From a virus: a stretch of DNA of 64,000 bases. Both the position numbers and the translations under genes were made by a program. Positions 197 to 63,785 of this stretch are shown here, in pieces. The first letter of the stretch is position 1. The number at the start of each line of letters is the position of its first letter. The notes below the pieces were generated by a model. That model saw nothing but the letters and a program-made list of their open reading frames with translations. It was not told where the DNA came from and made no database searches. The DNA lies in the IMG/VR virus record IMGVR_UViG_3300036791_001436, positions 1 through 64,000 of that record; one strand, written 5' to 3'.

Positions 197-225
197 TTGA
201 TGGCCACGAGGAGATCCGCTATAAT
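197..225 (+). promoter_or_regulatory. Promoter P0, upstream of terminase genes
   Basis: TTGATG at 197-202, a 17-bp spacer and TATAAT at 220-225 match the spacing of the other promoters in this phage. The site lies inside the open frame that runs from 163, which argues that the first gene starts downstream, at 247 or 277. Unlike most of the family it lacks the full GCTATATAAT 10-mer and shows no clear CCAAAA dyad. Confidence 0.6.
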
Positions 226-246
226 ATACCCAAAGCGAGACCTTAC

Positions 247-1341
247 ATGCCAGAGCACCGCCAACCATACGGGGCGATGAGTGACAAGGAAGCGATCGAC
301 GCTCAGTTCACCGTCGTCAACGAGCACCTGCAGAACACCGACGATGCGGATGGACTTGGGGGCCTGAAACCCAAGGCCGAGGACCCCCAACCCAACCAAG
401 AGCCCCGCGAACGGGACACCGAGCAAGAGCCACGTGCGCTCACACCCTTCGACAATGCGAGCGCCCCCATCGTCCTGCCGGAGCACACAAGCAGAGCAGA
501 CGCCATCCACATCCTCTCAAGGGAGATCCCGAGCAATGAATATGGGTTCCCGCTCTTCTTCTACCGAAGCGATCTTCTTCCGGCGGAACTTGAACTCCTT
601 ACGCAGGGAGATCTTGATCAGGCAGCGGTCAGGCTCGACTATTCTGAAGGCTACCCTACGTATGGGGCCCAGAGTAGTCCTTGGTGGGAAAGACTTCCAC
701 ATGAGCCGGCCGAGCCCTACACAGCCTTCACCCGATACCTCGACCAACCCGAAACCGTCGGGATCCGACAAGTAACCTTGCTGGCGAGGGACGAGCGCCT
801 GACCACCGAGCAAGTGGTGGCGTGGGCTAGGGAATACTATTGGTCGCGCAGGGCCCATGTGTACGACGCGTTCATTACGGCCGCCGACAAGAAGCGGAAG
901 GAGTTCCTGCAGCGCAAGGTGGAAGGGACACACTACCGCCAAACGCAGGACATCATCGGCGACCTAATGCATGTGTTCGAGCCAGATGAACATGGCACCC
1001 CATGGTGGAAACGCCTCGAGCCAAAGGAGGCACTGGACGCGGTAGAGCGCATGATGAAGTTGCAGCGCCTCTCCGTGGGTCTCTCGGTGAACGGCAATGC
1101 TGGGATCACCGCCAACCCAATCGAAGGGTTCACTGTCGCTGCCGTGATGCGCGAGGTGACCAAGCAAGGTGCCATGGTCGCTGAGAACATGGACACCGAC
1201 CTAATGCGTGCTATGGCCTCGGCCGAAGATCCCAGCATGATCGCGCGTGCGCAACAGCTCATCATTCAGCTGCGACGCGGCACGCCGCCAGCCACACCGG
1301 GGCCCACGGGTGAACACTCTCAAAGCCAGCCCGCGCGATGA
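247..1341 (+). CDS. Candidate terminase small subunit / packaging protein
   Basis: I do not recognise a named domain. The gene lies directly before the large terminase, the usual place for the small subunit that recognises packaging DNA. The protein (364 aa from this start) is hydrophilic, with a low-complexity N-terminal third rich in Pro, Glu and Asp and a helical C-terminal half with many Arg and Lys residues. That is longer than typical TerS proteins (about 150-200 aa). The frame is open from a TTG at 163, but promoter P0 at 197-225 lies inside that extension, so ATG 247 or ATG 277 is more likely the start. Neither has a strong ribosome binding site. The TerS call rests on position only. 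Confidence 0.55.
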   Translation: MPEHRQPYGAMSDKEAIDAQFTVVNEHLQNTDDADGLGGLKPKAEDPQPNQEPRERDTEQEPRALTPFDNASAPIVLPEHTSRADAIHILSREIPSNEYGFPLFFYRSDLLPAELELLTQGDLDQAAVRLDYSEGYPTYGAQSSPWWERLPHEPAEPYTAFTRYLDQPETVGIRQVTLLARDERLTTEQVVAWAREYYWSRRAHVYDAFITAADKKRKEFLQRKVEGTHYRQTQDIIGDLMHVFEPDEHGTPWWKRLEPKEALDAVERMMKLQRLSVGLSVNGNAGITANPIEGFTVAAVMREVTKQGAMVAENMDTDLMRAMASAEDPSMIARAQQLIIQLRRGTPPATPGPTGEHSQSQPAR

Positions 1342-1360
1342 GCGATAGGTAAGCCATAGC

Positions 1361-3010
1361 ATGAGCTTTAGTTACTCCCCAGATTCCACCCTACGAATGG
1401 GCGCGCACTCCGAAGCGCAGCTCGCGGAACTTGTGGGTAATTACAAACTGACCCCGGCAACCTTAATGTCCGAGCTGTGCGACTGGTGGCTGCCAGCGCC
1501 CTTCCTCCAATACCTGTCGGCAGAAATCGCATGGGCGATCCATCGTGGGTCTTGCGGCCTTCTAGTTTCGGCCCCTCCACGGCACGGTAAGTCAAAACTA
1601 ATCACCGTTGCCACTCCTCTCTGGGTGCTAGAGAAGTACCCCGAGAAGCATGTCGTTGTCGCCACATACGGTGAGGATCTGTCCACCGACTTCTCCCGTG
1701 AAACCAAAGACCTGATCAATGGAAATCCGGACAAGCTCTCAGTCAGGCTTCGGCAAGATGTTAGGCGTGTCGCCAACTTCCTCACGACGAAAGGCGGCGG
1801 CCTCAAAGCAGTCGGTCTCCGTGGGACCATCACTGGGCGCGGTGCTGACGTTCTCGTCATCGACGACTACATCAAGGAGCCTAAGGAGGCGCTTTCTTAC
1901 GACTATCTGGAGGGTATCAAGACTTGGTACACAACTGTTGCCCGTACCCGTCTTGAGCCTGGTGCTGTGGTCATCATCGTGGCGACTCGGTGGGTCACTG
2001 GTGATCTTCATGGTCACATCGAGCGTCTCGAAGCACGTCGCCCTCGCCCATATTACAAGATCATCAAGATACCGGCGCTGGCTCTTCACACTGAGGACCC
2101 GAAGACAGGCCGCACGATTCCAGACTTCCTTGGCAGGATGGAAGGGGAACCGCTCTTCCCAGAACGGTACAACGCCGAAGCCCTAGAGGACATCCGGTAC
2201 GAACTGCAGAACCGGTGGTTCGAGGCGATGTTCCAGCAGAACCCCCTGGCCGATGACTCCGCAATCACCAACCCTGCGAACATACAGGACATCTCGGAGG
2301 AGGATTTTGCCGCTCTCCTCACCCGAACGGAGGAGCAAACTGGGCGCATAACGTGGGTTCGGAGCTGGGATCTGGCCTCAACCAAGGACGGTGGCGACTT
2401 CACAACCGGCCCCTTGCTCGCATGGGACAAGATGGACAAGCGCCTTTACATCGTCCAAATGCCCAGAGGACAGTGGAGCGCCGGCCGTGTAGAGACCCAA
2501 TTCAAGTACTATGACGAGGCGGATGACAGCGCAATCCCCTGGATAATCGAGCAAGAACCCGGCTCCCAAGGCGAGTATGCGGTCGAACATTTCCGCAAAT
2601 TGGCGCCAAAACGGCGCATAATCGAGATGAAATCGGCCAGTTCCGGTGCAAAACTGCTCAAAGCGGAGCCATTTCTGGCCGAAACCGAGCGCAAAGGCGT
2701 ATATATGCTGAAAGCGCCGTGGAATCGCGCATTTCTGGACGAATTCGCGTCATTCCCAGAGGGGATGAACGACGACCAGATCGACGCCATCGCCAATGGG
2801 TACAACCAGTTGGCAGGCAAAAAGCCCCTGCGGGCAGTGTGGGGCCGTAGCAAAGAGACGGCAGAGGCCAAGGCGAAACTGGATAAAGGTGGCGGGGTGG
2901 TCTCAGGACCCAACAGGGCAACCTGGGGTAGGAACCTGCCTCAGACAGTAAATACCCGTGAGGGCACCACAATGCGTGTCCGTAGAGCCATGTTTTCTCT
3001 AGGCAGGTGA
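1361..3010 (+). CDS. terL: Terminase large subunit (ATPase and nuclease)
   Basis: This is the packaging motor, which pumps DNA into the prohead and cuts the concatemer. The N-terminal ATPase has a Walker A-type loop APPRHGKS at residues 71-78, a Walker B strand VLVIDD at 164-169 and a coupling motif IIVATRW near 205-211. The C-terminal RNase H-like nuclease is marked by RSWDLAS near residue 335 and an acidic DDQIDAIA segment near 469, as in phage terminases. The length of 549 aa is normal. The second acidic residue after Walker B is Asp rather than the usual Glu. The gene starts 20 bases after its upstream neighbour and is followed 3 bases later by the portal gene. Confidence 0.95.
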   Translation: MSFSYSPDSTLRMGAHSEAQLAELVGNYKLTPATLMSELCDWWLPAPFLQYLSAEIAWAIHRGSCGLLVSAPPRHGKSKLITVATPLWVLEKYPEKHVVVATYGEDLSTDFSRETKDLINGNPDKLSVRLRQDVRRVANFLTTKGGGLKAVGLRGTITGRGADVLVIDDYIKEPKEALSYDYLEGIKTWYTTVARTRLEPGAVVIIVATRWVTGDLHGHIERLEARRPRPYYKIIKIPALALHTEDPKTGRTIPDFLGRMEGEPLFPERYNAEALEDIRYELQNRWFEAMFQQNPLADDSAITNPANIQDISEEDFAALLTRTEEQTGRITWVRSWDLASTKDGGDFTTGPLLAWDKMDKRLYIVQMPRGQWSAGRVETQFKYYDEADDSAIPWIIEQEPGSQGEYAVEHFRKLAPKRRIIEMKSASSGAKLLKAEPFLAETERKGVYMLKAPWNRAFLDEFASFPEGMNDDQIDAIANGYNQLAGKKPLRAVWGRSKETAEAKAKLDKGGGVVSGPNRATWGRNLPQTVNTREGTTMRVRRAMFSLGR

Positions 3011-3013
3011 CAC

Positions 3014-4569: not shown

Positions 4570-4635
4570 CGGAACTGACATCCCCTCCGGCGGCCAGATT
4601 GCCGGCGCTCACGGGTGTCTTTTCGCCCCGTTAAG
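4570..4635 (+). repeat. Dispersed element copy A (partner at 47885-47940)
   Basis: About 60 bases that share long stretches with the reverse complement of 47885-47940, including GCTCACGGGTGTCTTT and CCCGTTAAGGG, in the same order and spacing. Both copies lie upstream of a family promoter (P1 here, P4 there) and point in the direction of transcription. The role is unknown; a regulatory RNA or termination structure in the leader region is possible. Confidence 0.6.
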
Positions 4636-4638
4636 GGC

Positions 4639-4678
4639 AATTTTACCCCTCCTCTCCCTGGTTACTGAGGGGAAAATT
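4639..4678 (+). terminator. Hairpin after portal gene
   Basis: AATTTTACCCC at 4639-4649 can pair with GGGGAAAATT at 4669-4678, with one bulged A. The A/T-rich base of the stem gives a short U or A tract on either strand. It lies between the portal stop and promoter P1 and could end the terminase-portal transcript. Confidence 0.5.
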
Positions 4679-7160: not shown

Positions 7161-10100
7161 GTGGGCTACTCACTGGTAGGCACTGGGGGCTACGGCTCCG
7201 GCGTTACGCTGACTGGTAGCAACTTCAGTGCTGTTACCGGCGGCTCAATAACGTTCTCCCAGCAGGCCTCTGAGGCGCTGGTCAATACCCCCTTGCCTCT
7301 GCCTGGTACGTTGTCAGGCCTAAGGGCTGATCAGGGGCCCTTCACAGCGCCTTTTGTAGGGACTCTCCGCAAGAACGGGGCGAACGCCAACCAGGTAGTC
7401 ACCGACGCTGTCCCCTTGGCAGGACAGGCAGCCACTAGCTTTCTGCGTGGTGACACCGTTGATATGTCCTGGGGCACAGCCACCGGGACGATCTCTCGCC
7501 TGCAGATGGTGTGGGTAGGTCAAGGGGCGGCGCACAGTGCTCTCTATGGCTCGGGAGCTTCCTCTGGCAGTGGCAATCCCTTCGGGCCAGCGAACAACCA
7601 CTTCTACCAGTGCCTCTTTGGACAGCAGGGAGGTCAGACAGTTAGTGCGGGCCCTGCGTATGCACAAGTTGGTGCCCCAGGGACGCTCCAGGGCTTTGCA
7701 GTCTGCGTCGCTAGTAATATCAATACTTCCCCTGTCACGGTCAGCGTCTATCAGAATGGGGCGGTTGCGACACAAGGGGTAACGGTTGGCGCCGGGATCA
7801 CCGGAGCATTCCAGGACACTACCAACACCACCCCCGTACAGTATGGCGACCTTATCTGCTCGCATCTGTACTCGAGCGACGGGATGAATCTCGCCTCGAT
7901 AGTGGTAGGGTTTGTTAGTAATGCGGGGCCACAGCACGATATCTTCGGCAACTGCAACGGTGCTATCGGGGCGAACGCCGTCACCTATGCGCCGATCTAC
8001 GGCTTCTACGCCCTCTACCAGAATACCATCGAGTCCGCACAGCAGGTCGTACATGGATTCCGAGTCAACCTTACTGGCCTGAAGGCGTACGCGTATAACC
8101 TAAATAACGCTACAGGCCCATCGACGATTAGGACGCGCATCAACGGCGCGAATGGCACTCTGCTAGTTACCGTTGGCGCAGGCCTGACAGGGTGGTTTGT
8201 AGATACCGCGCATACCGACTTCTTGGGGCCCACGGATAAGCTCTGCTACCAGGTGACTGCCGGGCCAGGGCCTGCTGGCAACGTCCTTCTGACCAACGTT
8301 GTAGGCGTCACCGAGATTGCGCCATTCCCGAGTCAGGTCTCCCCGACACGAGGATATTCACTCTTCGGGAATACCGGCGGCGCCGCAGCCGTAGGTGCAA
8401 ACACTTTCAGCATGCTAGGGGGCGGTAACGCTGCTTATAAGCAGGCTGTTGAAGCAAATGCCCAAGTTGCGATGCCCGTGGCGGGGGTGCTATCAAACCT
8501 GTCAATACAGGGACCGACTTCTGGTACCTTTACTGGGCGACTCCGTAAGAACCTCGCGAACGCCAACCAGCAGGTCAACGACGGCAATCTGTTTGTGCCA
8601 CCGGTTAACGACTATACGCTGAGCCCCTGGAGCCAATTCAACGTAACTGTCACGCCGGCAGCGACAACTAATCCTATTACTGGAGCGACAGACGCTCAGC
8701 TGGTAGTGCCTACTACCGCGAACAACGGCCACGTTGTTAACCAGACCATCAGTGTTAATGTCGCAGGCAACTATACGCTCAGCTGGTACCTTAAGGCGTC
8801 GGGCTATACCTACAACCGAATCCTGGTGCAACAGTCGGGTTTCTTCGCCTATGCAACATTCAACCTCTCTGGCGCAGGGTCGATGTTTGCCAGTGGGATA
8901 TCTGCATCTGGTGGGGTTACGTTCGTATCGGGGAGTATCGTATCGCTAGGTTCGGGCTGGTACCTTTGCACGCTCAATGTTGGCAACATCCTCACTACGT
9001 CCAGCATAATCGTTGAAGCTGGGCCGTGCGACAATACAGGCAACGCGACCTTCGCAGGTGATGGCACCTCAGGTGCCTACGAGTGGGGCGGAAGATTTGT
9101 GCTGACCAGCTCGGTGCCATCGACGCTGACTTCTAATGCATTCGATAACGTCGCACTAGGTGATACGATCGACCTAGCCTGGGATGCCAACACTTCGGGG
9201 CAGATCCAGCGTACGAGGCTAACTCTGGTTGGGAATCCGTACCACGGGGCAGTCTGGGGGTCCACCCCATACAACAACGCTACTACGGCCATCCCGATCA
9301 ACAACAGCGCCTACCATCAGTTTGTCGGCTTCAACCAGGCCTATCCAGGGCTAGCACAGTACCTTCAAAGGTGCCAGCTCAAGATAGGCGTTGCAGGCCT
9401 TATGCAAGGTCTAGGGCTGAACGCTCCTGTCAATGCGGCGGCTAGCAGCGTGACGCTCTCGCTCAACCTGAATGGTGCGACAGCAGCGCTGGGGCCCACC
9501 ATTGGAGCTGGGCTAACAGGCGCCTTCATCGACACCACCCGACAAGTTGCAGTGGTGCCGGGCGATCTCGTCTGCGGAAATACTCTGGCTATTCCGGCAT
9601 CGTTCAGCGTCTCGTCGGTTTGGGTGGGGTTCGTCAATCCCAGCGCCCCTAGCAACGACATCTGGTTTGGAGTCACCGCCGGTCTTGTGCAGACCGCTGG
9701 TGTCTACTTCCCGCTCGTTGGTGGTGGCCAGTACGGCGGTATTACCCCCGAATCAGTTGCTCAGACCGCGCACGGCTTTGCGGTTACAATGTCGGGCCTG
9801 CGTGTGTATGTGGACACCAGCACCTCGACGGCCCCCGCCTCGATCAACACCCGCAAGAATGGAGTCAACGGCAATCAGATTGTGACTATAGGGGCAGGGT
9901 TGACGGGGTGGTTCCAGGACACCGCCAACACCGACTCCTATGCCCCGACAGACCTGGCCTGCTACCGCTCTGTGGTAGGGTCTGCGGGCCTTAGCGGTGT
10001 GTACTACATTGGCGTCACCGAGACCGCCCCTCTCGCTCCCGCTCCTGCCATTCCAGCTAGGGGATGGTCGCTAGTCGGGATGACCAACTACGGTGTGCAG

Positions 10101-13100
10101 GGGTTCCAGACTGGAGCAGGGTTCACCCTGCCCCTTACCGAGTCGATGCGTTTACTGCAGGCCACTGAAACGGCAGGGCAACTCCCGATGCCGGTAGCAG
10201 GGACGCTCGGAGGACTGACCGCATCGCAAGGTGCGGTGACCGGCAACTGGAGCGCCCAGCTCCGGAAGAATAGCGCGAATGCCAACCAGGTCATCAATGA
10301 TGGCAACCTGGTGAAGTGGTGCAACGACTATACCCAGACCTCAGTGTGGGGCAACGGCGATGTCACCATCACTACCGCTGCGTTGGTCAATCCTATCACT
10401 GGGAGGCCCGATGCTCAAAAGGTCGTGCCAGATACCGTCAACACCTATCACTTCCTCAGTCAGCAGATTGCGGGCATACCGCAAGGAGCGACCACTACAC
10501 TGTCGGTCTACGCTAAGAACGCCAACTACAACTTCGCCTTCGTCCAACTCACCGATGGTACCATCTACGTTGGTGCCAACTTCGATCTGACCACCGGCGC
10601 AGTCACATATACCCAGGGCAGCGTCGCAGGGGCTACGCTGGTGTCGACTTCGGCTGTGGCAGTAGGGTCGGGCTGGTGGCTGCTGTCGGTCACGGTGATG
10701 TTCGCTGCGAGCTCGCCTAATATACAGATCTACGCTTTCCCGACAGGCGGTATCCCCTCCTACGCAGGCGATGGAACATCGGGTATCTACCTCTTCGGTG
10801 TGAAGGTTACCTGGGCTCCCGTATTGAACTCTGGTTCGGACTATACGAACCCAGCATGGATCCAGCAGGACGTTACGGTCACGCCAGCGGCCACATCGAA
10901 CCCGCTCACGGGAGCGAACGACGCTCAGAAGATCACCCCAGATACGGTCAATACTGGGCACCAGGTCCATCAGCCGATCTCGTTCGCTAGCGGCGTGGCT
11001 AATACGCTCACCGTCTATTGCAAGAATGCCGGGTACAACTTTGCCTTCATCTCGTTCAGTGACTTCGTCGCCAACGCGGCCGGTATCGTTGTTGACCTGA
11101 GCTCGGGCGAAATATTGAACATCCAGCAGGTCGGTAGTATGACGCTCGGGCTGTATTCGGCTGTGATGATGGCCAACGGCTGGTGGAAGATCACACTGAC
11201 GGGAACCGCTACCACCTCGCCAGTCCACGTGACGATCCATCCGTCCGCCACAGGAGGCACTGCACCGTTCGCAGGTGATGGAGTCTCTGGCATCTACGCC
11301 TATGGCGCGCAACTTACCCAAGCTGCCGCTGTTGCCCCACCGTTGACCTCGCTAGCCAAAGACACCTGCGTAATAGGCGACTTGATGTCGCTGTCATGGG
11401 GTGTTGCGAACGGCACTGGCACAGTGCAGCGCTTGCAGATGTCCCTGCTGGGAAGTGCATTGCACTCTGCCATCTATGGGAGTGCATATCCCAATACCAA
11501 TCCAGCCTCGTTCCCCGGCAACAACCACTTCTACATGCCCCTTTGGGGCTACATGATGGGAGCTGTCCTTTCGCAGCTGCCCTACGTCAATAATATGATT
11601 GGCGCAGCGGGGACATTGCAGAACCTGTCGATCAACCTGCCGATCAACAACATGACCGGCGCCAGCGCCTTCACGATCTACCAGAACGGGGCGGTTGCTA
11701 ACCTAGGACCGACTATCGGTGTGGGGCTCACTGGGATCTTCACAGACACCCGCCAGCTGCAGGTCAACCAAGGCGATATGGTCTGCACGCACCTGTTCGC
11801 TAGCGGTGGATCCTTCCTGCCAACTGGTCTCACTGTAGGGTTCGTCAATCCCAATGCGCCCGCCAACGACCTCAACGTTCACGTCTACGCCGGGCTGGTG
11901 GCTGGCACTACTACGTACTACCAGATCTACGGCGACTCGTTCAGTCTCGGCGGAGTCACTGAGGTGGTGGCGCAGACCGCCCACGGCTTCGGCGTTACGA
12001 TGTCTGGGATGCGGGTTGGTATCGCTACCAACACCACCACCTCGATCTCGACGGCGGCAATACGCGTCAATGGAGTAACAGGGAACTCTAAGGTCACCAT
12101 TGGCGTCGGCCTAACCGGCTGGTTCGTTGACAGTGTGAACCAAGACTTCTGTGGGTATACGGACAAGGTTGCCTATCAGGTAGTGGCGGGCGCAGGTTCA
12201 GGATCTCCCATTGTAGTTTCCTTCATTGGCGCCGTAGAGACTGCCCCTGCCAACCCGCCCAGTAGTGTGCTGATGGGCGCAAGCGGCAGTATTGGCATCG
12301 CTGCGACTACCGGCAACTTCTCTGGACTAGCGGGTTCAGGCTTCGTTGGGAGTGGCGTTACAGAATCGTTCATTGCATACCCAATGCCTGTAGCAGGCGC
12401 GTTCAGTGGCCTCTCGGTGCCCCCGAACGCAGGACAGACTGGTACCTGGACAGCCCAGTTCCGCAAGAACAGTGCGAATGGTGCCCAGGTGGTGACCAAT
12501 GCAGCCCTGAGTTCCCTCAATGTGGACCCTGTAGCGGCAGGCGATAAGGTAGACCTAGCTTGGGGTGCAGGTACATCAGGTTTGATCTGGGCCATTCAGT
12601 CAGTCTTCTCAGCGGCGTCTGATCACTGGGCGATCTACGCCTGCGGCCACCAAGCGGCCGGCGGGAACGTAAACGCTGGAGCTACCATCTACCCCAGGCT
12701 CTGCGGATCGCCTGGAGGCCAAACGACCGAAGCAAATGTGCAGTCTCAGATAGGGGCTCCGGGCACACTCTCAGGGTTAGTAGTCATAATTTCGTTGAAC
12801 GCTGCGACCGCCTCTTCAACTGCAGGGCTTCGTAAGAACGCTGCGAACGGCACACAGACAGTCACGATTGGAGCCGGCCTAACTGGACTCTTCCAAGATG
12901 TGACCCATACCGATGCGGTGGTGGTAGGCGACCTGATCAATGGGATCACCACTGCAGGTGCTGGCGGTACCATCAGCCTTATGGTAATAGGCGTAGCCTT
13001 CAAGAATACGGTCAACTTCCTTAGCGATCTCTTCGTGTCCGGGGTATCGTATACCGCGGCTGGATATGCTCGTATCTACGGGCAGAGTCTCGGCACCTTC

Positions 13101-15449
13101 ACTGAGGCGCAGGCGCAGGTCTCACATGGCTTCGCGACTAGGATGTCACGCTACTGGATCAACGTCACTACAAATACCTGCACGGCTCCATCGAACAGCA
13201 CGGTGCGTATCAACGGTGTGCAGGGGAATCAGGCTGTCACTGTTGGTGCAGGCCTGCTAGGCATCTTCACCGACGTGATCAATACCGACGCTGTAGGGCC
13301 CAACGATCTTGTCTGCTATGGCACCTTCCCTGGTGTTGGTGGTTCATTCCAGCCACTTACTATGGGCATCACTGAGAACGGGAATGTTACATACACCCCC
13401 AACATAGTGGCAAATGCTACGGCCGCGGTGGTGAGGGGCGCGAACACCATCTTGCGCTCGCCGGTATTGGCCAATGTGCCCACAGTGCAGAACCTGCGCC
13501 CCTTCAGGATTGTTCAGCAGCCGTTGATACCTACGCTTGCTCAGGCAGTGTCTCTGTACTTCCACGGCAGGCAGGTCTTCCATAACCGCATCATCGACAC
13601 CCCTGGGATCGGCATCATATACAAGAATGCCCTGAGGCCGATCAAGCCATTCGTTGCAGTGCAGTCGCCCTTGTCAAGGGGCACTGTGCGCATCCTCCTG
13701 ACTCTCAGCGGTGCAGTGAGCGAGTACTCTTCTACGGTGATTCGCGCCGCTGCCAATTACAGGGCGAATACCTTCCCGATAATGACTCAGAGGCTCGCCG
13801 CGACTATCATTCGGCACAATAACGAGCAGGTAGTTGCCCTGCTCAGGGAGAGCCTTGGACGTACCTTCCCGACGGTGATAGCCAATGTAGTGGCGCCGTA
13901 TGCGAATACGTTCGGTCGCGCGATGAAGACCGTGTCTACGGTAGTCGCCCTCTTCAACCGAGGGAGCCCACGGCTGTATCTGGTTGAGAGCACTCACGTA
14001 GTGGATCTGATCAACAAGGCAGCCGCTCGCCCAAGGATTATCAACGCTCAGACTATCCAGTGGGTTGCCTTTGCGCCTGCACGTGCATACCTGGCGCTGG
14101 TGGCGATAGTGTCGTTGCGCCCGAACAGAGTAGGTCGCGCTGCGCCTGCTGTCGTGAACACGCTCAATATCCACACCAAGGAGGCAGTCCGACTGATCCT
14201 CACCCAGGTGACGCAGATTGTATCATTGCGGAACGATGCGCTGCACCAAGCGGAGTATGTTGACGCCGCTACTACGCAACGGTTGCGCAACCGAGTTGCT
14301 CGTGCCGCTCCTGTAGTCGCGACGGTAGTGTCGTCGATCGTGGACTCGATAGTTCAGCTTGCAACAACTACTATCGCAACGGCAGTGAGCCTGTTGAGGA
14401 GGCGGGTACCTAACTTCCCGTTGGCTGAATCTGAACACGTAATGTCCTTCGACACGTACACGGTGAAGCGCCACGAGGCCACCAATGTGGTTACAGTGCA
14501 GTCGATCAGCTTCACCTTCGGTCGAGGGATGCTGGCAGTTACAGCAGTAGTGTCTCTGTTGGTGAAGGCGGTGCGGAACGCCGTGAAGCCGCTCGCCAAC
14601 GTCGTAGTCTTGTTCCAACACACAATCCCCACCTATCTCCTCGCGGCGAGCGAACATGTCGTGAGCATCGAGCATGATACGGTGAAAAGGCGTGAAGCTA
14701 CCAGCGTAGAGACCGAGCAGCTGTTCTCCCAACTGAAGGGACACACCTCCATTGGCGTGACACAGGGTGTGCCATCCTCCAGCAACAATGTAGGGAAGCC
14801 TTTGGCGGCAGTGGTAGTTTTCACTACTGAGTCGTTCCGTAAGGGTGCTACACATATCGTGCTCGCGGTGGCCAACACTATGGAACGAGTGGCATTCTCC
14901 ATTGCGCACCTTGAAGATCCTAACGCTGCCGTAGTCGCCATCGAGCGTGTAGCAGTGGTAGAGCGCCCCATCGATGTGGTGGCTACCGTCGTCTCCGCTG
15001 ATGTGAAGGCAATAGCCAAGCCTCTGGAAGCAATTGAGGTCCCGGTATCGCTGTTCACCAGGGTGACTCAGGTCCTGAGCTTCATCGCCGTCGCACCTGT
15101 AGTGACACTGCTAGGACGTGTAATCAACATCCGCAGAGTCATTATGGCTCCCGTCATAGCGTGGGTGCAGCTGGTTCGTCCCATGAGCGCTGTGGCTTTG
15201 GCAACCGTGTCGTCGCTGCTCGTGAGAGCTGTGACTCAACCTCGTACGGCTGTAATCACGGTCTCCTCAAAGCTGTTCATCCCGCTGTTGCGCTTCTTCC
15301 TAGCCGCTGCCAATGTTGTCGCCCATGGCGCCAACAATGCAGGCAAAGTGGCGCACGTCAACGCTATCGTCGTGCCAATGACCAAATACGTTGGTGGAAG
15401 GGTTAGAAGGCTCTTCCAATTCATGCGAGGGATATCACCTAGGAGCTAG
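7161..15449 (+). CDS. Giant repeat-containing tail fibre / surface protein (2762 aa)
   Basis: Residues 1 to about 2073 hold four large repeats, starting near 1, 397, 967 and 1702. Each opens with an LRKN-AN-QVV type segment and is followed by two shorter repeats with a GAGLTG-F-DT core, eight in all. Three jellyroll-like modules ending in GDGTSG-Y-WGGR or YGAQL are inserted at about 481-650, 1053-1223 and 1223-1387; they resemble the carbohydrate-binding-like modules common in phage fibres. Residues 2074-2762 change to a Val/Arg/Ala-rich, basic region with degenerate repeats (HVV or HVM segments near 2274, 2421 and 2494). It starts at GTG after AAAGGGG. It is probably an exposed fibre or decoration that meets sugars. 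It lies between packaging and head genes, not in the tail block, which is unusual. Confidence 0.75.
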   Translation: MGYSLVGTGGYGSGVTLTGSNFSAVTGGSITFSQQASEALVNTPLPLPGTLSGLRADQGPFTAPFVGTLRKNGANANQVVTDAVPLAGQAATSFLRGDTVDMSWGTATGTISRLQMVWVGQGAAHSALYGSGASSGSGNPFGPANNHFYQCLFGQQGGQTVSAGPAYAQVGAPGTLQGFAVCVASNINTSPVTVSVYQNGAVATQGVTVGAGITGAFQDTTNTTPVQYGDLICSHLYSSDGMNLASIVVGFVSNAGPQHDIFGNCNGAIGANAVTYAPIYGFYALYQNTIESAQQVVHGFRVNLTGLKAYAYNLNNATGPSTIRTRINGANGTLLVTVGAGLTGWFVDTAHTDFLGPTDKLCYQVTAGPGPAGNVLLTNVVGVTEIAPFPSQVSPTRGYSLFGNTGGAAAVGANTFSMLGGGNAAYKQAVEANAQVAMPVAGVLSNLSIQGPTSGTFTGRLRKNLANANQQVNDGNLFVPPVNDYTLSPWSQFNVTVTPAATTNPITGATDAQLVVPTTANNGHVVNQTISVNVAGNYTLSWYLKASGYTYNRILVQQSGFFAYATFNLSGAGSMFASGISASGGVTFVSGSIVSLGSGWYLCTLNVGNILTTSSIIVEAGPCDNTGNATFAGDGTSGAYEWGGRFVLTSSVPSTLTSNAFDNVALGDTIDLAWDANTSGQIQRTRLTLVGNPYHGAVWGSTPYNNATTAIPINNSAYHQFVGFNQAYPGLAQYLQRCQLKIGVAGLMQGLGLNAPVNAAASSVTLSLNLNGATAALGPTIGAGLTGAFIDTTRQVAVVPGDLVCGNTLAIPASFSVSSVWVGFVNPSAPSNDIWFGVTAGLVQTAGVYFPLVGGGQYGGITPESVAQTAHGFAVTMSGLRVYVDTSTSTAPASINTRKNGVNGNQIVTIGAGLTGWFQDTANTDSYAPTDLACYRSVVGSAGLSGVYYIGVTETAPLAPAPAIPARGWSLVGMTNYGVQGFQTGAGFTLPLTESMRLLQATETAGQLPMPVAGTLGGLTASQGAVTGNWSAQLRKNSANANQVINDGNLVKWCNDYTQTSVWGNGDVTITTAALVNPITGRPDAQKVVPDTVNTYHFLSQQIAGIPQGATTTLSVYAKNANYNFAFVQLTDGTIYVGANFDLTTGAVTYTQGSVAGATLVSTSAVAVGSGWWLLSVTVMFAASSPNIQIYAFPTGGIPSYAGDGTSGIYLFGVKVTWAPVLNSGSDYTNPAWIQQDVTVTPAATSNPLTGANDAQKITPDTVNTGHQVHQPISFASGVANTLTVYCKNAGYNFAFISFSDFVANAAGIVVDLSSGEILNIQQVGSMTLGLYSAVMMANGWWKITLTGTATTSPVHVTIHPSATGGTAPFAGDGVSGIYAYGAQLTQAAAVAPPLTSLAKDTCVIGDLMSLSWGVANGTGTVQRLQMSLLGSALHSAIYGSAYPNTNPASFPGNNHFYMPLWGYMMGAVLSQLPYVNNMIGAAGTLQNLSINLPINNMTGASAFTIYQNGAVANLGPTIGVGLTGIFTDTRQLQVNQGDMVCTHLFASGGSFLPTGLTVGFVNPNAPANDLNVHVYAGLVAGTTTYYQIYGDSFSLGGVTEVVAQTAHGFGVTMSGMRVGIATNTTTSISTAAIRVNGVTGNSKVTIGVGLTGWFVDSVNQDFCGYTDKVAYQVVAGAGSGSPIVVSFIGAVETAPANPPSSVLMGASGSIGIAATTGNFSGLAGSGFVGSGVTESFIAYPMPVAGAFSGLSVPPNAGQTGTWTAQFRKNSANGAQVVTNAALSSLNVDPVAAGDKVDLAWGAGTSGLIWAIQSVFSAASDHWAIYACGHQAAGGNVNAGATIYPRLCGSPGGQTTEANVQSQIGAPGTLSGLVVIISLNAATASSTAGLRKNAANGTQTVTIGAGLTGLFQDVTHTDAVVVGDLINGITTAGAGGTISLMVIGVAFKNTVNFLSDLFVSGVSYTAAGYARIYGQSLGTFTEAQAQVSHGFATRMSRYWINVTTNTCTAPSNSTVRINGVQGNQAVTVGAGLLGIFTDVINTDAVGPNDLVCYGTFPGVGGSFQPLTMGITENGNVTYTPNIVANATAAVVRGANTILRSPVLANVPTVQNLRPFRIVQQPLIPTLAQAVSLYFHGRQVFHNRIIDTPGIGIIYKNALRPIKPFVAVQSPLSRGTVRILLTLSGAVSEYSSTVIRAAANYRANTFPIMTQRLAATIIRHNNEQVVALLRESLGRTFPTVIANVVAPYANTFGRAMKTVSTVVALFNRGSPRLYLVESTHVVDLINKAAARPRIINAQTIQWVAFAPARAYLALVAIVSLRPNRVGRAAPAVVNTLNIHTKEAVRLILTQVTQIVSLRNDALHQAEYVDAATTQRLRNRVARAAPVVATVVSSIVDSIVQLATTTIATAVSLLRRRVPNFPLAESEHVMSFDTYTVKRHEATNVVTVQSISFTFGRGMLAVTAVVSLLVKAVRNAVKPLANVVVLFQHTIPTYLLAASEHVVSIEHDTVKRREATSVETEQLFSQLKGHTSIGVTQGVPSSSNNVGKPLAAVVVFTTESFRKGATHIVLAVANTMERVAFSIAHLEDPNAAVVAIERVAVVERPIDVVATVVSADVKAIAKPLEAIEVPVSLFTRVTQVLSFIAVAPVVTLLGRVINIRRVIMAPVIAWVQLVRPMSAVALATVSSLLVRAVTQPRTAVITVSSKLFIPLLRFFLAAANVVAHGANNAGKVAHVNAIVVPMTKYVGGRVRRLFQFMRGISPRS

Positions 15450-34479: not shown

Positions 34480-35209
34480 CGAAGAACTCCTTCCGCAGAG
34501 GCGGGTTGGTGAGGAATCGTCCGCCACAGCGGTCGGTGACAGTCTTGGAGTTTTGCTGTTGAGCGCCCCTGGCCTTCATGCACATGTGCGTTGCCTTGAT
34601 GCACACAGCGATGTCCGTGGTGCCGAGGATGTATGCCAGCGCCTCGTAGATCTGTGCAGTCAGACGTTCCTGCACTTGAGGGCGCCGAGCGAAGAACTCT
34701 GCCACACGGGCGAACTTGGATAGGCCGAGGAGTTTGCGGTTGGGAATGTAGGCGATGTGCGCCACCCCGTCAATAGGCATCAGGTGATGCTCGCATAGAC
34801 TCATGATCTGGATATCCTGCACCAGCACCATCTGGTCGTAGGCGCCGTGTGCTTCCTCTGGGGGAGGGGCGTTACTGCCGGTCCCTGTAGCGGCGGGGAC
34901 TAGTACGGGCCGAAGCACACCATTCGGCACCACCGTGCACTCAGGGAAGCGTTCGTAATCCAGGCCGGCACAGAACTCCTCAATGAACATCTTCGCATAC
35001 CGGGCCGGTGTACGCATTAGGGAAGGATTGGTCAGGTCCAGCCCAAGATGGTTCAGGGCGATGCACAAGGACTCTTCGATGTAGGACTCTGCCAGTTTGA
35101 AGTCCGGGTCGTCCTTGAGAGGGGTCTCGAACCCCATCTTGACAAGGTGTTTGCGGACCTCCTCGCCTAGGGCGGGGTTGGTGATGTACTCGCTACCGAG
35201 TCGTGCCAT
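34463..35209 (-). CDS. folE: GTP cyclohydrolase I
   Basis: Turns GTP into dihydroneopterin triphosphate, the first step of preQ0 synthesis. The zinc ligands of the family are present: Cys139 and His142 in SLCEHH and Cys210 in THMCMKARG; the QxxNSKT-type end is QQQNSKTVTDR. It has about 25 extra residues near 100-125 (Pro/Ala/Gly-rich). At 248 aa it is close to bacterial FolE. It overlaps DUF3310 upstream and the phosphoribosyltransferase downstream. It lies in the RNR operon rather than next to queCDE, but the same phage carries the whole pathway. Confidence 0.93.
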   Translation of the reverse strand: MARLGSEYITNPALGEEVRKHLVKMGFETPLKDDPDFKLAESYIEESLCIALNHLGLDLTNPSLMRTPARYAKMFIEEFCAGLDYERFPECTVVPNGVLRPVLVPAATGTGSNAPPPEEAHGAYDQMVLVQDIQIMSLCEHHLMPIDGVAHIAYIPNRKLLGLSKFARVAEFFARRPQVQERLTAQIYEALAYILGTTDIAVCIKATHMCMKARGAQQQNSKTVTDRCGGRFLTNPPLRKEFFDAVRA

Positions 35210-43171: not shown

Positions 43172-43589
43172 GTTCCGACACTGTCACTTTCTCTAGTTGT
43201 ACCCGCCCGTCTGATTGGGAGGCGATGAAGGAGTAGGCGTGTTGGAAGATATGGGCAGCGAAGGCCTCGATCCCTACTTGTGGGAGCACTATGAGGTCTG
43301 CCGCTTTGGCGATCTGGAGTTCCCTGAATGTGCTGATCAGAGGATCGTCGGCAGCCACTAGCAGCTTATGGTCGAACTGCTCCTGGAGCCACATCTTCAG
43401 TTCCTTGAGCCCGCCGAAGTCCTGCACCCAGCCATTCTCGTCAAGGGCAAACGCCGAGAACTCGAAGTGGATCTTCAACGCATACCCATGCAGGTAGTGG
43501 CAGTGGGAATCCGATCGCCATTGCCTGAAGCAGCAGCTTAGACCTTGTTCGTGCCCATAGGTCTTGCTGCTAGTGAACCTATGTTCCAT
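43131..43589 (-). CDS. queD: 6-carboxytetrahydropterin synthase
   Basis: Makes 6-carboxytetrahydropterin from dihydroneopterin triphosphate. The catalytic Cys30 and LHGYALK segment match the CxxLHGHxF region, and SEHDGNSASYE near the C-terminus fits the Glu/Tyr active-site segment. The third zinc His of the usual HGH is a Tyr here (HGY, residue 36), while His13, His29, His31 and His34 are present. The length of 152 aa is normal for the family. It lies five bases upstream of the overlap with queC in a tightly packed block. Confidence 0.85.
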   Translation of the reverse strand: MEHRFTSSKTYGHEQGLSCCFRQWRSDSHCHYLHGYALKIHFEFSAFALDENGWVQDFGGLKELKMWLQEQFDHKLLVAADDPLISTFRELQIAKAADLIVLPQVGIEAFAAHIFQHAYSFIASQSDGRVQLEKVTVSEHDGNSASYEIRPD

Positions 43590-43594
43590 GGCTG

Positions 43595-44389
43595 CTACTC
43601 CGCCAGGTAGACGGTTGGGTCGTGGACGATCGCATCGTGGAACGCTTCCCTACGTGCGATACAGGTTGGGCAGACACCGCAGTGCCGGCTCTCACCTGCA
43701 TAGCAGCTCCAGGTGTCTGCGAAGTCGACGTCCAGGGAGTCACCGAGTTGCACGACTTCGGACTTCACCATGTGCACCAAGGGAACGCGAAGGCGCACCT
43801 TCCCGTAGGTGCCGATCTGGATGGCTGCCGCTTGCGCACCGAGGAACTCCAGAGTGCAGTCTGGGTATGCGTCTCTGGCTGCATCGTCGGCGTGCATCCC
43901 AGCGTAGAGAATGGCGTTGGCCTGTGCTAGGCTCTTCTCTGCTGCCATCACCCAGGACTGTGCCCTCGCTGCCATGATGCTGAGCATTGTCCCGTTGCGA
44001 TAGCTGACGTAGGTTGGGGAGATGCCTTCGGGAAGCTCCCCGTACGACATCTGGGGGATGGGTTCGTTCACTTCCTTGTCCACCAACATTCCCGTGAAGG
44101 ACCCTTGGATGTTGACAACGATGTGCTCGGCCTCGAACTTCTTGGCTTGCCTGCGGGCGTACTCGATCTCCTTCTTGTGCCGTTGCCCATAATCGAAGGT
44201 CAGGCACTCGATCTCAGCACTGGGGAATTGGTCACGAGCGAACGCCAGGACGGTGCTGGAGTCGACTCCTCCCGACAACATGACGAAGCACTTGGTGACC
44301 ACGAGCGGGGGCTTGGGTCTCGGATCCCTAAATGTCGAAGTCAGGGTCTGGGGTAGGTCTGACTCTGTGGAGGTAGGGTGATCGACCAT
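43595..44389 (-). CDS. queC: 7-cyano-7-deazaguanine (preQ0) synthase
   Basis: ATP-dependent conversion of 7-carboxy-7-deazaguanine to preQ0. The PP-loop SGGVDSST is at residues 39-46, TFDYGQRHKKEI follows near 65, YVSYRNGTMLS near 130, and the zinc cluster CYAGESRHCGVCPTC near 235. ATG 44389 has AGAGG upstream; an earlier ATG at 44431 lies deeper inside the HTH gene. At 264 aa it has no fused amidotransferase domain, so preQ0 and not the amidine form is the expected end product within this window. Confidence 0.93.
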   Translation of the reverse strand: MVDHPTSTESDLPQTLTSTFRDPRPKPPLVVTKCFVMLSGGVDSSTVLAFARDQFPSAEIECLTFDYGQRHKKEIEYARRQAKKFEAEHIVVNIQGSFTGMLVDKEVNEPIPQMSYGELPEGISPTYVSYRNGTMLSIMAARAQSWVMAAEKSLAQANAILYAGMHADDAARDAYPDCTLEFLGAQAAAIQIGTYGKVRLRVPLVHMVKSEVVQLGDSLDVDFADTWSCYAGESRHCGVCPTCIARREAFHDAIVHDPTVYLAE

Positions 44390-44636
44390 GTTGGCCTCTA
44401 GCTTGTGGGTCGGAGGGTGGAGACTGGGCAAGACGTCGGAGCTCGGAGATGGGGATGCGATAGTTGCGCCCCATGTACTCGCCCTTGATCTGCCCAGTCT
44501 TGATCCAGTTCAGTACCGTGTGGTAGTGTACGTGGAGTAACGGTGCAGCGCGACGAGGCGATATCCATCCTCGGAGGTTGAGGATCTCCGCCGCCGTGAG
44601 ACCGGCGACTTCTTCTTCAATGTCGTTGGGGGACAT
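44328..44636 (-). CDS. Small helix-turn-helix DNA-binding protein (excisionase-like)
   Basis: A 102-aa protein with a MerR/excisionase-type HTH: ISPRRAAPLLHVHYHTVLNW near residue 25 and a wing IKTGQIKGEYMGRNYRIP. The C-terminal 30 residues are a basic Pro-rich tail that overlaps the start of queC by 62 bases in another frame. It is the only clear sequence-specific DNA-binding protein seen in the window, so it is one candidate to bind the dyads upstream of the promoters. That link is speculation. Confidence 0.75.
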   Translation of the reverse strand: MSPNDIEEEVAGLTAAEILNLRGWISPRRAAPLLHVHYHTVLNWIKTGQIKGEYMGRNYRIPISELRRLAQSPPSDPQARGQHGRSPYLHRVRPTPDPDFDI

Positions 44637-59535: not shown

Positions 59536-62007
59536 TTACTTTTTGACTAGCTTGTACATCTGCTTGTTGTGTAGTGTGCGGCCGGGAACTAGACCTGCAG
59601 TGCTGGCAACGGTATGCTTGTTCAACTGTAGGTATCGGCCTAGAGACCGTGGTTCCTGAAGGACTTTGCAGTTGGCGAATTCTTCCTCCCCTGATGCCCA
59701 GGTAGAGATTTCTATAGCCGCCCATTCCTGGCTGTACACCCCCGCGCCGTTCTGCTCTTCCATCTCCGCAACGAACGCGACTAGTCCTTCTAAGGCCCAG
59801 TCTGCCTCGCTCAGACGCTCATCGCGGGAGGACTCTAGGTAGTCCTTCACCCATCCAGCGTCGGAAGGTGCTGCCCCAAAAATTTGTGCAGTGAGCGTAA
59901 GTAGCTGCTCGACGTTGATTAGCCGGTACTTCGCCTTATATCGTGTTGCCCACTTTTCGTGGTTGAATGCGGATCGCAGGAGGCGGTGCACGAACAAGAT
60001 GTGATGTGCCAGCCAGTTTGCCCGACCACCGAATCGCGCCAGTTGGTGGGAGGCCCATTCACCGTCGTACTCTAGTTCGTCCGTCCCCTTATCCAGCTCC
60101 GTGATGATTGAGCGTTGCACGATGTCAGCGTTGGTGAAGGGCTGCCGTATACTCGTAATCCCGAAGACGCAGCTCACGTGGATCTTGACTACTCCGGTAT
60201 TGGTGTAAAGTCGGCGCTGCTCGATGTTTGGCGCAGGCTCAGTAGTGAGTCGGCACAGCTCATCACTGAGCTTTTGCCGAAGCTGCGCATCCTGAAGCTG
60301 GACATTGTCAGTGACATAGAGTCCCCCGGAGTTCGCCACACCAGCCTGCCAGTCTCGTAGGTCGTTCGGAGTGTTTCTAAGGACTGCGCTACCTGTGAGG
60401 ATGTTGAGCCGAATAACGTACAGCGAAGACTTGCCGCTTCCGGCCTCTCCAGTAACGATCTCAACAGGAAGCTGCGTCTCTCGCCAACGGTAGAACCAAG
60501 GGGAGATGTAGTAGAGATAGGAAAGGAGGAGACGCTGGTGGTCCCCGCTTGACTCTTGTATACGTGCTCCCCTAAGAACATCGTACCAACGGTTAGGTAG
60601 GGGTCGTCCACTATCGCCCACGTCGTTGGTTTGAGTCTTGAGGGCCTCTCGGAACTCTTCCTCTGTGATGCCTTGGACATGTCCCGCCTCGAACAAAACG
60701 TTATCGTCCCCGTTGTTCAGGATGGCAATATGGTCTTTAGTGACTCGGACCTGCTGTCCGTCGTTCAGATGGTAGTAGAAGGTATCGCCGCGCCATGCGA
60801 GGATTCGCTCTGGAACTACTTCCTCAATAGGCTGTTCAGCGGAAAACTGGCCCGCCAGCCACGTCAAGGTGCGAACATCGCCTTGGTGTAGATTGTATTC
60901 CTTGAATAGAAGAATGCCCCAAGGGCTATCTGCGTACCCTGGTTCCTTCGGGTGCGGGAATATTACCTTAAGCAGCCTCTTCTCTTCAGCCTGGTAGTAG
61001 TATAGTTGACCTTCATCTGGGGCTCGGAGTCGTTGCCCTCGAGCGTCCAGATCTGTGAGAACTGCAAGGGCAACAGACTGCTGATCCTGTCGGGTAAGCG
61101 AATTACCTCTCTGCAGACGCTCGTTAATGTAGGCACTAATATTCGGGTAACGAGGAAAGGCGGTTCTGTCTGCAATACACCCACGGACAAGTTCTCGAAG
61201 TTTCTCCGGACCTCCGTCCTCGTGTAGCAGATAGTCGTCCAGCCCGGTCTTGTAGAAGAACGTCTTGAGGCCTTGATGCGTAGGCGGGGCTTTCCCGGCG
61301 AGAAGGGGTGGAAGATGACATTGACGGATTTGAGCCAACGGGATTCCACGACGACGAAGCTCGAAAGCAAACATCGCGGCGGCTCTAGCAACGGGTTCTT
61401 TAGCCCTTGGGCCATCCGTGTCATATACAAGGACAATAGGGATGTCGGCTTGTCGTATATAGTTGATGACATCTTCTAGCCCTTCAGCCAGAGTGGAGGC
61501 AAGCTCCACAGGCCTTTTGTTTCCTGGGAGCTTTGCCTTCAACTGGCCGTTGACTGAGGCTAGTTTGGTATCACGTGGAAGACTAATAGTGCGGTTACGC
61601 CAGCTGTCGACGCCGCTAAGAGAGCAACAAGGAAACCCGTTCTTGACAGCAGCGACGGCTTTCTTTTCCCCCTCCGTGACGAGAAGGTATTCCAGTTCAC
61701 CTCGGGAGGCCAATTCATTGATCAGCCCCCACAGTCTTGGCGGGAAGTAAACATGGTTTAGGCTCCCTATGACCTGACGATATTTGGCATCGTCGTCTTC
61801 TACGTCGAACAGCTTTACACGGTAGAAGGGAAGCGGGGTTCCCCTCAGCGAGAAGTAGGGAATAGCATAGCCGTCGCTGCCAACGGGCGCGCCGGTTGCT
61901 GCCTTCTCGGCCGGTGTCAAAGTCTTGGCCCGTATCTCCCCAGGCAGGATCCCTGACTGTGCCAGGTCTGCGAGAAGCTTCGGGCTGTACAGTTGATCCA
62001 CAGACAT
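59536..62007 (-). CDS. Primase-helicase (DUF3854/TOPRIM-like plus AAA helicase)
   Basis: An 823-aa replication protein. The N-terminal 200 residues have a TOPRIM-like pattern, VTEGEKKAVAAVKNGFPCCSLSG near 108 and IVLVYDTDG near 190, as in DUF3854 primases. From about 500 there is a helicase ATPase with Walker A GEAGSGKSS near 517 and a VTDNVQLQD strand near 565. It probably opens and primes DNA at the phage origin, as D5-like primase-helicases do. It follows the 150-aa gene and lies in the P9 transcript. No separate loader was found in the window. Confidence 0.82.
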   Translation of the reverse strand: MSVDQLYSPKLLADLAQSGILPGEIRAKTLTPAEKAATGAPVGSDGYAIPYFSLRGTPLPFYRVKLFDVEDDDAKYRQVIGSLNHVYFPPRLWGLINELASRGELEYLLVTEGEKKAVAAVKNGFPCCSLSGVDSWRNRTISLPRDTKLASVNGQLKAKLPGNKRPVELASTLAEGLEDVINYIRQADIPIVLVYDTDGPRAKEPVARAAAMFAFELRRRGIPLAQIRQCHLPPLLAGKAPPTHQGLKTFFYKTGLDDYLLHEDGGPEKLRELVRGCIADRTAFPRYPNISAYINERLQRGNSLTRQDQQSVALAVLTDLDARGQRLRAPDEGQLYYYQAEEKRLLKVIFPHPKEPGYADSPWGILLFKEYNLHQGDVRTLTWLAGQFSAEQPIEEVVPERILAWRGDTFYYHLNDGQQVRVTKDHIAILNNGDDNVLFEAGHVQGITEEEFREALKTQTNDVGDSGRPLPNRWYDVLRGARIQESSGDHQRLLLSYLYYISPWFYRWRETQLPVEIVTGEAGSGKSSLYVIRLNILTGSAVLRNTPNDLRDWQAGVANSGGLYVTDNVQLQDAQLRQKLSDELCRLTTEPAPNIEQRRLYTNTGVVKIHVSCVFGITSIRQPFTNADIVQRSIITELDKGTDELEYDGEWASHQLARFGGRANWLAHHILFVHRLLRSAFNHEKWATRYKAKYRLINVEQLLTLTAQIFGAAPSDAGWVKDYLESSRDERLSEADWALEGLVAFVAEMEEQNGAGVYSQEWAAIEISTWASGEEEFANCKVLQEPRSLGRYLQLNKHTVASTAGLVPGRTLHNKQMYKLVKK

Positions 62008-62071: not shown

Positions 62072-62524
62072 CTATGCTGTTTGTTGGGGGGTCTGGGTTT
62101 GGGGTTCGTTGTCTGCTTGTTCAGCGGTGTATTGCTCCACCGTGAGAGTCTGTGGGCGCAGTTGCGCGTTGTACGGGTAGGTGTTATCTGCCCGGTGGTA
62201 GATGAGGTAGCTCATCGCACGACCTGCCGGCGTTTGAGCCGATAGGCGGGTGGCTGCCACTAGTCCCTTGGTCACCATCCTGTGGAGGACGGGACGCCAC
62301 ATCTTCGGAGGCAAGGAGGGGCCAATCCCCGTTTGGAGCATCGATGCCGAGACAAATGGGAAGATCGTCATGACGTGCATCAGACGGTCTTCAACATCCC
62401 TAAACAGCTCCTCCACCTGACTCTCAGTGTGAGTCGGCTGGATGAGGTGCACGACCGCAGGAACGTCGTCGACCTCCACTTCGGTTTCGGGGTCGGCTCC
62501 CGTGTCGTTAACTTGGTCGTTCAT
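62072..62524 (-). CDS. Winged-helix-like protein
   Basis: A 150-aa protein with an acidic N-terminus and a central helical region that could be a winged helix (LMHVMTIFPFVSASMLQTGI then WRPVLHRMVTKGLVAATRLS). The C-terminal 30 residues are Gln/Thr/Pro-rich. It is the first gene after P9 and just upstream of the primase-helicase, so an origin-binding or regulatory role is conceivable. Not recognised by name. Confidence 0.6.
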   Translation of the reverse strand: MNDQVNDTGADPETEVEVDDVPAVVHLIQPTHTESQVEELFRDVEDRLMHVMTIFPFVSASMLQTGIGPSLPPKMWRPVLHRMVTKGLVAATRLSAQTPAGRAMSYLIYHRADNTYPYNAQLRPQTLTVEQYTAEQADNEPQTQTPQQTA

Positions 62525-62585: not shown

Positions 62586-62614
62586 GAGGGCATCTTTGGG
62601 TTGAATAGTTCGCC

Positions 62615-63637: not shown

Positions 63638-63671
63638 GTACCTTTGCTCCAGATCTCCTACTTCACTATTC

Positions 63672-63700
63672 ATTATATAGCAACTTCCAGAGGGCTTCAA
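63672..63700 (-). promoter_or_regulatory. Promoter P10 (leftward half of divergent pair)
   Basis: On the - strand: TTGAAG (63700-63695), 17-bp spacer, TATAAT (63677-63672) in GCTATATAAT. The predicted start is near 63665, 63.5 bases from the centre of the shared dyad at 63721-63736. Confidence 0.8.
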
Positions 63701-63720
63701 GAGGCATTCGATTGGTCGGG

Positions 63721-63736
63721 CCAAAATCTTTTTTGG
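63721..63736. promoter_or_regulatory. Shared dyad between divergent promoters P10 and P11
   Basis: CCAAAATCTTTTTTGG, centred at 63728.5. The two -10 boxes lie at equal distances on either side, so the dyad is exactly central. It is the best candidate binding site for a regulator of the whole promoter family. Confidence 0.65.
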
Positions 63737-63756
63737 GTTCAACCCCATTTCGCCTC

Positions 63757-63785
63757 TTGAGGTCCCTTAGGGGTTGCTATATAAT
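63757..63785 (+). promoter_or_regulatory. Promoter P11 (rightward half of divergent pair)
   Basis: TTGAGG at 63757-63762, 17-bp spacer, TATAAT at 63780-63785 in GCTATATAAT. The predicted start is near 63792. It would drive the gene at the right edge of the window. Confidence 0.8.

Follow-up and report, generated by a model that had tools for sequence, protein, structure and literature searches.

The DNA analysed here, bases 1 to 64,000 of the 75,339-base IMG/VR virus record IMGVR_UViG_3300036791_001436 (the window), carries a series of similar promoter-like sites on both strands, raising the question of whether these form a single family and, if so, what reads them. A sequence-only reading had listed twelve such sites (P0 to P11), each with a TTGAnn-like -35 hexamer exactly 17 base pairs (bp) from the -10, and had attributed them to one dedicated regulator. 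Our analysis indicates that the virus appears to switch on all of its gene blocks from about 17 copies of one promoter design. The explanation we favour, to which we give slightly less than an even chance, is that these are host sigma-70-type promoters used phage-wide to serve all gene arms, each bearing a composite upstream element that would most likely be read by a phage-encoded factor.

The core of the design reads TTGAnn-17/18-TATAAT, usually with CTC-TTGA and the 10-mer GCTATATAAT, and stands directly 5' of genes, with ribosome-site-like sequence downstream. The 10-mer, which had been noted at eight sites, is indeed present in exactly eight copies in the window (three on the plus and five on the minus strand) and in nine across the record, where the same pattern read backwards has 0 copies. 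The 17-bp spacing likewise holds at all twelve window sites, although P7 has TTGCTT rather than a TTGAnn-like -35. Scored with a core matrix, the eleven TATATAAT sites of the record reached 33.9-50.6 bits, against best scores of 5.8-14.1 bits in 20 Markov-shuffled genomes; each TATATAAT site ranked within the top 14 in a leave-one-out analysis, and a motif scan for equally good sites inside genes found none near this range, the best unrelated in-gene match scoring ~5 bits. With -35 and -10 hexamers near TTGACA and TATAAT, a spacing of 16-18 bp and a position before genes, the sites are, as judged from their sequence, of the sigma-70 type.

We assign ten of the twelve proposed members (P1-P5 and P7-P11) to one predicted promoter family, most of them far above chance. 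P0 is a plausible outlier, with a weak core at a conserved position, while P6 (54484) was rejected, as its 8.5 bits fall inside the shuffle range and it lacks the GG-N4-CC motif described below. Seven more members lie outside the window, at 66029 (+), 68305 (-), 68410 (+), 69948 (+), 71574 (+), 73139 (+) and 74388 (+). Cores are weaker at P0 (15.2 bits), P4 (17.8 bits), P8 (17.6 bits) and 68305 (12.7 bits). The four right-end promoters at 69948, 71574, 73139 and 74388 have an 18-bp spacer and share a AGTTATATTG block after the -10, which reads AGTTATATTG(G)AAG (in L009: 6948-6967, 8574-8593, 10139-10158 and 11388-11407) and is possibly an initial-transcript or early-gene signature; by these features the four form a real subclass, one distinguished otherwise than by the position of the upstream dyad.

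As had been claimed, the sites occur on both strands and serve both gene arms. The plus strand to 33.8 kb holds terminase, portal, head, tape-measure and fibre genes; the minus strand to 63.7 kb holds genes for ribonucleotide reductase, DNA polymerase, QueC/D/E, GTP cyclohydrolase, a Sak4-like protein, exonuclease, helicase and ligase; and small genes follow on the plus strand past 63.7 kb. The evidence for a single predicted promoter class, common to both strands and to every gene arm, is good. Annotation of the window proteins gives a siphovirus gene content, with the Brevundimonas phages MaInes and StAshley as closest annotated phages (terminase and capsid protein 55% identical), and because these are its closest annotated phages and MaInes shares its gene order, an alphaproteobacterial, Brevundimonas-like host is likely. 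The housekeeping sigma-70 promoter of S. meliloti is CTTGAC-N17-CTATAT (PMC2873474). Since the phage cores resemble this alphaproteobacterial type in their CTTGA-like -35, 17-bp spacing and CTATA directly at the -10, we infer that host RNA polymerase with its housekeeping sigma factor starts transcription. They differ from it in that CA seldom closes the -35, the 17-bp register is occupied by TATAAT in place of CTATAT, and a conserved upstream element is added.

We characterised this element at 68 intergenic promoters from the record and its relatives, picked by their core only, upstream sequence forming no part of the choice. It is composite: near -62 stands an A/T tract flanked by CC...GG, near -52 a GG-N4-CC motif (GGTCGACC-like), and near -43 a second A/T tract, which is followed by CTC-TTGA. 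Counted in bp before the -35, the profile has C/T/C at 1-3, A/T at 6-10, CC at 11-14, GG at 19-21, A/T at 23-31 (A-rich distally, T-rich nearer the -35) and CC at 33-37. The A/T fraction is 0.79-0.87 at 7-10 bp, compared with 0.54 in controls, and a Gibbs alignment of the upstream sequences reached 9.3 bits, compared with 4.7-5.1 bits when they were shuffled. The outer CCAAAA...TTTTGG dyad has at least 10/12 matches at its own offset in 17/68 promoters (mean in shuffles, 0.08), at other offsets in 0-2 promoters, and 3/46 genic look-alikes reach 10/12 matches; most strong dyads lie at promoters, at a fixed distance, on both strands. The outer dyad ranges in width from 13 to 17 bp and is therefore, as read from these sequences, no rigid two-half-site operator. 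The inner motif has a gap of 4 in 14/24 cases, with GG at 18-19 and CC at 12-13 bp before the -35 and the centre near -52 (variants GGTCGACC, GGTTGACC, GGTCGCCC and GGGCGACC). Its spacing seems more constant than that of the outer dyad, but since the search preferred a gap of 4 where several pairs were possible, and since the GG...CC pair is enriched rather than exclusive (24/68 promoters against 2-11 in shifted windows), a rigid spacing is suggestive, not proven.

A dyad near -62 had been described at P1, P2, P3, P4, P8, P10 and P11; we find it at P1, P2, P3 and P8, in weaker form at P4, and as one shared dyad at P10/P11. What had been taken at P5 and P7 for a shifted dyad (CCAAATT-GG near -45) is the proximal ATTTGGACTC/CATTTTGNCTC tract carried by most members; P5 has a degenerate -62 dyad of its own (CCAACAGAAACAATGG), and P7 and P9 have none. 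The suggestion that dyad position tells early from late sets is likewise not supported, since the -45 tract is common to almost the whole family and the structural, replication and small-gene arms alike have the -62 dyad. The dyad shared by the divergent promoters P10 and P11, CCAAAATCTTTTTTGG (63721..63736; 12/12 dyad matches), is centred 28.5 bp from both -35 hexamers, and a second divergent pair, 68305 (-) and 68410 (+), also has one shared A/T dyad, centred 29/29 bp from its -35 hexamers. Because these centres are equidistant from both hexamers, they suggest that one symmetric A/T tract works in both directions, a single dyad thus serving both promoters of each pair.

How far is the element conserved, and does it amount to more than A/T-richness? 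A cross-phage matrix trained on relatives only, with the record excluded, gave 17 record sites a mean of 10.0 bits in exact register, 6.8 and 3.9 bits one base to either side and less than zero at three bases off register, while permuted columns reached at most 3.7 bits. By this matrix 14/19 sites fall among the best 0.1% of positions genome-wide; P6 belongs to that group as well, owing to its A/T-richness, and the matrix alone therefore cannot define membership. At orthologous genes the element is kept before the maturation-protease-like gene (P2), between those for DNA polymerase and ribonucleotide reductase (P3) and before the exonuclease gene (P4), and its proximal part is kept before the gene at 62.5 kb (P9); the proposed scan of relatives thus bears out that orthologous promoters retain the element in register. 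A matrix built from some members locates promoters in others with only 30-60% protein identity, so that a phage group known mostly from metagenomes gains a transferable transcription map.

These scores bear on an alternative that we regard as possible but doubtful, in which no phage regulator takes part: the element is of the UP type, its readers being the alpha subunits of host polymerase or an A/T-binding protein of the host, and the promoters are strong and constitutive, with their timing coming from elsewhere. UP elements are recognised by the C-terminal domain of the RNA polymerase alpha subunit (Estrem et al., as cited in PMC4390567). The A/T tracts upstream of the -35 near -43 and -62 recall them, and the proximal subsite (A/T-rich from about -38 to -46) is in place; the varying width of the outer dyad, moreover, fits a reading of the narrow minor groove better than a rigid dimer, and because the cores are strong the element could be read by the host alone. 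The A/T profile by itself does account for about half of what the cross-phage matrix detects, but the remaining 4.5 bits are base-specific (permuted maximum 0.2) and include the conserved GG-N4-CC, which stands between the tracts where an A/T-rich distal subsite would be expected (about -47 to -57). The second tract, near -62, lies about one helical turn further upstream than the distal subsite of E. coli. The element is also confined to one phage group and is unused by unrelated phages of the MaInes host: intergenic core promoters number 0 in Babayka (whole genome), 3 in Strzyga (50 kb) and 0 in Poludnitsa (50 kb), and none of them carries it, whereas it is found at half of the StAshley promoters and at 64% of those of MaInes. 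Being present in these two isolates, which have a cultured host (Brevundimonas pondensis LVF1), the scheme is directly testable. No description of such an upstream element was found in the open-licence literature searched.

The element also differs from other systems in which phage promoters carry upstream sites. At the middle promoter Pm of phage Mu, the activator Mor acts together with a partial UP element, its 16-bp site centred at -43.5 replacing the -35 (PMC4390567). Pm is similar in joining an inverted-repeat site and an A/T tract; here, however, the -35 is intact in all members and the element is centred near -52/-62, with the GG-N4-CC site near -52. The Ogr-activated late promoters of phage P2 have a dyad at about -55, upstream of a -35 that is poor or absent, which is common to many promoters of one phage. 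The record shares such a common upstream dyad with them, although the dyad is a different one and the -35 TTGA is present, and no Ogr/Delta-type zinc-binding activator was matched among the proteins scanned, which were a subset of the open reading frames only.

That the element serves a phage repressor or modulator as its operator, in control of the immunity or cro-like kind, with a helix-turn-helix (HTH) protein acting negatively, seems unlikely. Small HTH genes do lie under such promoters, often divergently, as with 67694-68221 (-) after 68305 (-), 39915-40217 (-) in G001 and several in L018. Repression is nevertheless made less likely by the position of the element, which at -39 to -72 is upstream of the -35 and clear of the core, and by the annotations of MaInes and StAshley, which include no gene for an integrase or for lysogeny. 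The spacer holds an inverted repeat (GTCC..GGAC) that is striking by eye; it is not significant, being hardly above shuffles and no commoner than in genic look-alikes. The stoperators of cluster A mycobacteriophages are mostly not promoter-associated, are asymmetric and have one orientation (PMC6550527). Like them, the record has many related sites of lineage-specific sequence across one genome; unlike them, these sites are at promoters and on both strands, and we rejected dispersed, stoperator-like repressor sites since most strong copies are at promoters at a fixed distance.

Control by a host cell-cycle regulator, either CtrA or GcrA with CcrM-methylated GANTC, is very improbable. CtrA controls some phages of Alphaproteobacteria (PMC9437464), and like those phages (of Caulobacterales and others) the record has dyad sites in intergenic promoter regions; GACTC, too, precedes the -35 at 8/68 promoters. 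The CtrA motif TTAA-N7-TTAA, however, is absent from the record, MaInes, G002 and G003, on which ground CtrA was rejected, and GcrA/CcrM was rejected because GANTC is below expectation genome-wide (236 against ~279) and absent at most promoters.

Which phage protein might read the element? The leading candidate is a family of small HTH proteins with an IRYQHVRN signature, one of which is encoded just beyond the window by the conserved open reading frame 66563-67174 (+) (likely start 66752). An AlphaFold2 model of 66752-67174 (+) has helices at residues 35-45, 49-56 and 60-68 with a predicted local distance difference test (pLDDT) score of ~90, and a long C-terminal helix. A profile of this protein retrieved, in MaInes, G001, G003, G009, G010, L018, L032 and L033, small paralogues that bear the signature IRYQHVRNVL, as well as a diverged one in G011 and one in the record itself, at 67694-68221 (-), a gene that starts ~80 bp after the promoter 68305 (-). 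The family is found in nearly all records of the lineage. In G004 the profile search did not find it, and there the promoters carry a different upstream sequence, AAAATAGCACC. The sister group L065-L067 (record G004), together with L013, L014 and L027, has repeated promoters that share another upstream sequence, AAAATAGCACCNAANNGNACTC, with mostly 18-bp spacers starting TTGTCC.

We place the IRYQHVRN family first because loci fetched by the HTH protein only, excluding contigs already used, often carry the element, at 47/154 core promoters (31%) as compared with 1/35 (3%) in control loci lacking the protein, which were chosen by core pattern and not matched for ancestry; examples are L112 and L101, with GGTCGCCCATCATTTTGACAC before the -35. 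Of 19 records of carrier contigs that we checked, 13 have a related terminase; a DNA polymerase related at 39-42% identity is present in five of the other six, and the sixth (L115/L127) gave no match to either query. By these comparisons, the element and the HTH protein co-occur across different packaging genes.

Several observations nonetheless weigh against our favoured explanation. Because nearly all checked carriers share a DNA polymerase or terminase with the record phage, shared ancestry could explain the association of protein and element. Taken over its full length, the AlphaFold2 model is weak (pLDDT 68.6), the part outside the HTH stretch being uncertain, and both Foldseek with this model and a sequence search of solved structures returned only insignificant, generic HTH matches. 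In the carriers L074, L083 and L084 a different sequence precedes the carrier's own HTH gene, which weighs against a one-to-one code, and in L018 and MaInes the match to the element is weak or partial. The record also encodes other DNA-binding candidates, namely HTH_17 (44331-44636), an XRE-like protein (69536-69853, +) and a winged-helix-like protein (62072-62524), and with cores this strong an activator is not obviously needed. Separately, in the subgroup L076, L083, L084 and L086, CTGTCGATACGAAATAT lies upstream of the IRYQHVRN gene and CCATCCTATYAGGATGG across its promoter spacer, an arrangement that looks like an operator for self-control.

In the explanation that we favour, the IRYQHVRN-family protein (record ~66752-67174, +, and 67694-68221, -) would bind GG-N4-CC as a dimer and help to keep the alpha C-terminal domain of the polymerase in contact with the -43 tract, so that transcription would start more often in every arm. 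The analysis thereby points to one family of candidate regulators and to one short site of contact, and the single dedicated regulator of the sequence-only reading is leading but unproven, favoured by an element that is in register across relatives, absent from unrelated phages of the MaInes host and associated with the HTH family. A wider proposal, which we offer only tentatively, is that a large alphaproteobacterial siphovirus group with related replication and differing packaging genes shares one transcription code, whereby the IRYQHVRN protein would read GG-N4-CC near -52 on strong host promoters and drive the small-gene, replication and structural arms together, divergent arms sharing a symmetric A/T element.

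Taken along the window, P0 (197..225, +; 15.2 bits) has TTGATG-17-TATAAT without an upstream dyad, before a terminase small-subunit-like gene with likely ATG 247; its core is kept in the near relative L030, and a MaInes promoter precedes the same gene. P1 (4684..4750, +; 41.6 bits) follows the portal gene and combines the upstream sequence CCAAAAATATCGG-TTGA-CC, in the top 0.01% of the genome by the cross-phage matrix (the measure used for all upstream ranks below), with the core TTGATG-17-TATAAT; it is conserved in L030/L031, with CCAGAAATATTGG. P2 (15616..15682, +; 35.4 bits), with CCAAAAACTTTGG-TGGA-CC and core, lies 27 bp before ATG 15709 of the maturation-protease-like gene and has orthologous promoters in G002, G009, G010, G011, G012, L032, L042 and MaInes. 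Between the DNA polymerase and ribonucleotide reductase genes, P3 (39017..39083, -; 47.3 bits) has CCAAAAGTAAATTGG upstream of its core, and its orthologues keep the same dyad, with CCAAAAGAAAATTGG in G003 (34352, +) and CCCAAAAAATCTTTGGG in G002 (30048, +). P4 (47796..47862, -; 17.8 bits) joins the weaker core TTGATT-17-TAGTAT to an upstream element in the top 0.001%, before the exonuclease gene (GTG 47756), with orthologous promoters in G002 (20890, +) and MaInes (64678, -). Just upstream of both P1 and P4 is a two-copy repeat, GCTCACGGGTGTCTTTTCGC..CCCCGTTAAGGG..AATTT (4606-4650, +, and 47924-47880, -), which could fold into a short G+C stem with A/T after it and is possibly a terminator before both promoters.

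P5 (53312..53378, -; 45.2 bits), 35 bp before ATG 53277, has the core, the proximal AATTTGGACTC tract and its degenerate -62 dyad, ranking in the top 0.06%. The non-member P6 (54484..54512, -) is a TTGACT-17-TATGAT sequence in an A/T-rich stretch. At P7 (55498..55564, -; 43.5 bits) the core TTGCTT-17-TATAAT is accompanied by the proximal tract without a distal dyad, and the upstream element is unconvincing (top 4.7%). P8 (59397..59463, -; 17.6 bits) has a weaker core, TTGATT-17-TATACT, and a strong upstream CAAAAATAATTTTTGG-TCGC-CC (top 0.002%). P9 (62557..62623, -; 45.1 bits), 33 bp before ATG 62524, has the core and the proximal ACCCAAAGATGCCCTC without a distal dyad; its orthologous promoter is G002 6040 (+). 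The leftward and rightward halves of the divergent pair, P10 (63672..63738, -; 37.1 bits) and P11 (63719..63785, +; 47.8 bits), each have the core and an upstream element in the top 0.02%.

A megablast nucleotide search with the first 25 kb matched no phage, a viral-contig search with the DNA polymerase returned one relative and with the 823-residue protein none, and Rfam and tRNA scans had no matches. That 823-residue protein (59539-62007, -), whose sole match is a weak one to DUF3854, is kept in the lineage and is 48% identical in MaInes. A single open reading frame of 2762 residues (7161-15449, +) occupies the interval between the portal and maturation-protease-like genes; its first 946 residues had no Pfam match. 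Genes for QueC, QueD, QueE and GTP cyclohydrolase lie at 42323-44431 and 34466-35209 (-), and suggest that the phage makes a 7-deazaguanine, perhaps for DNA modification; the gene set of MaInes points the same way.

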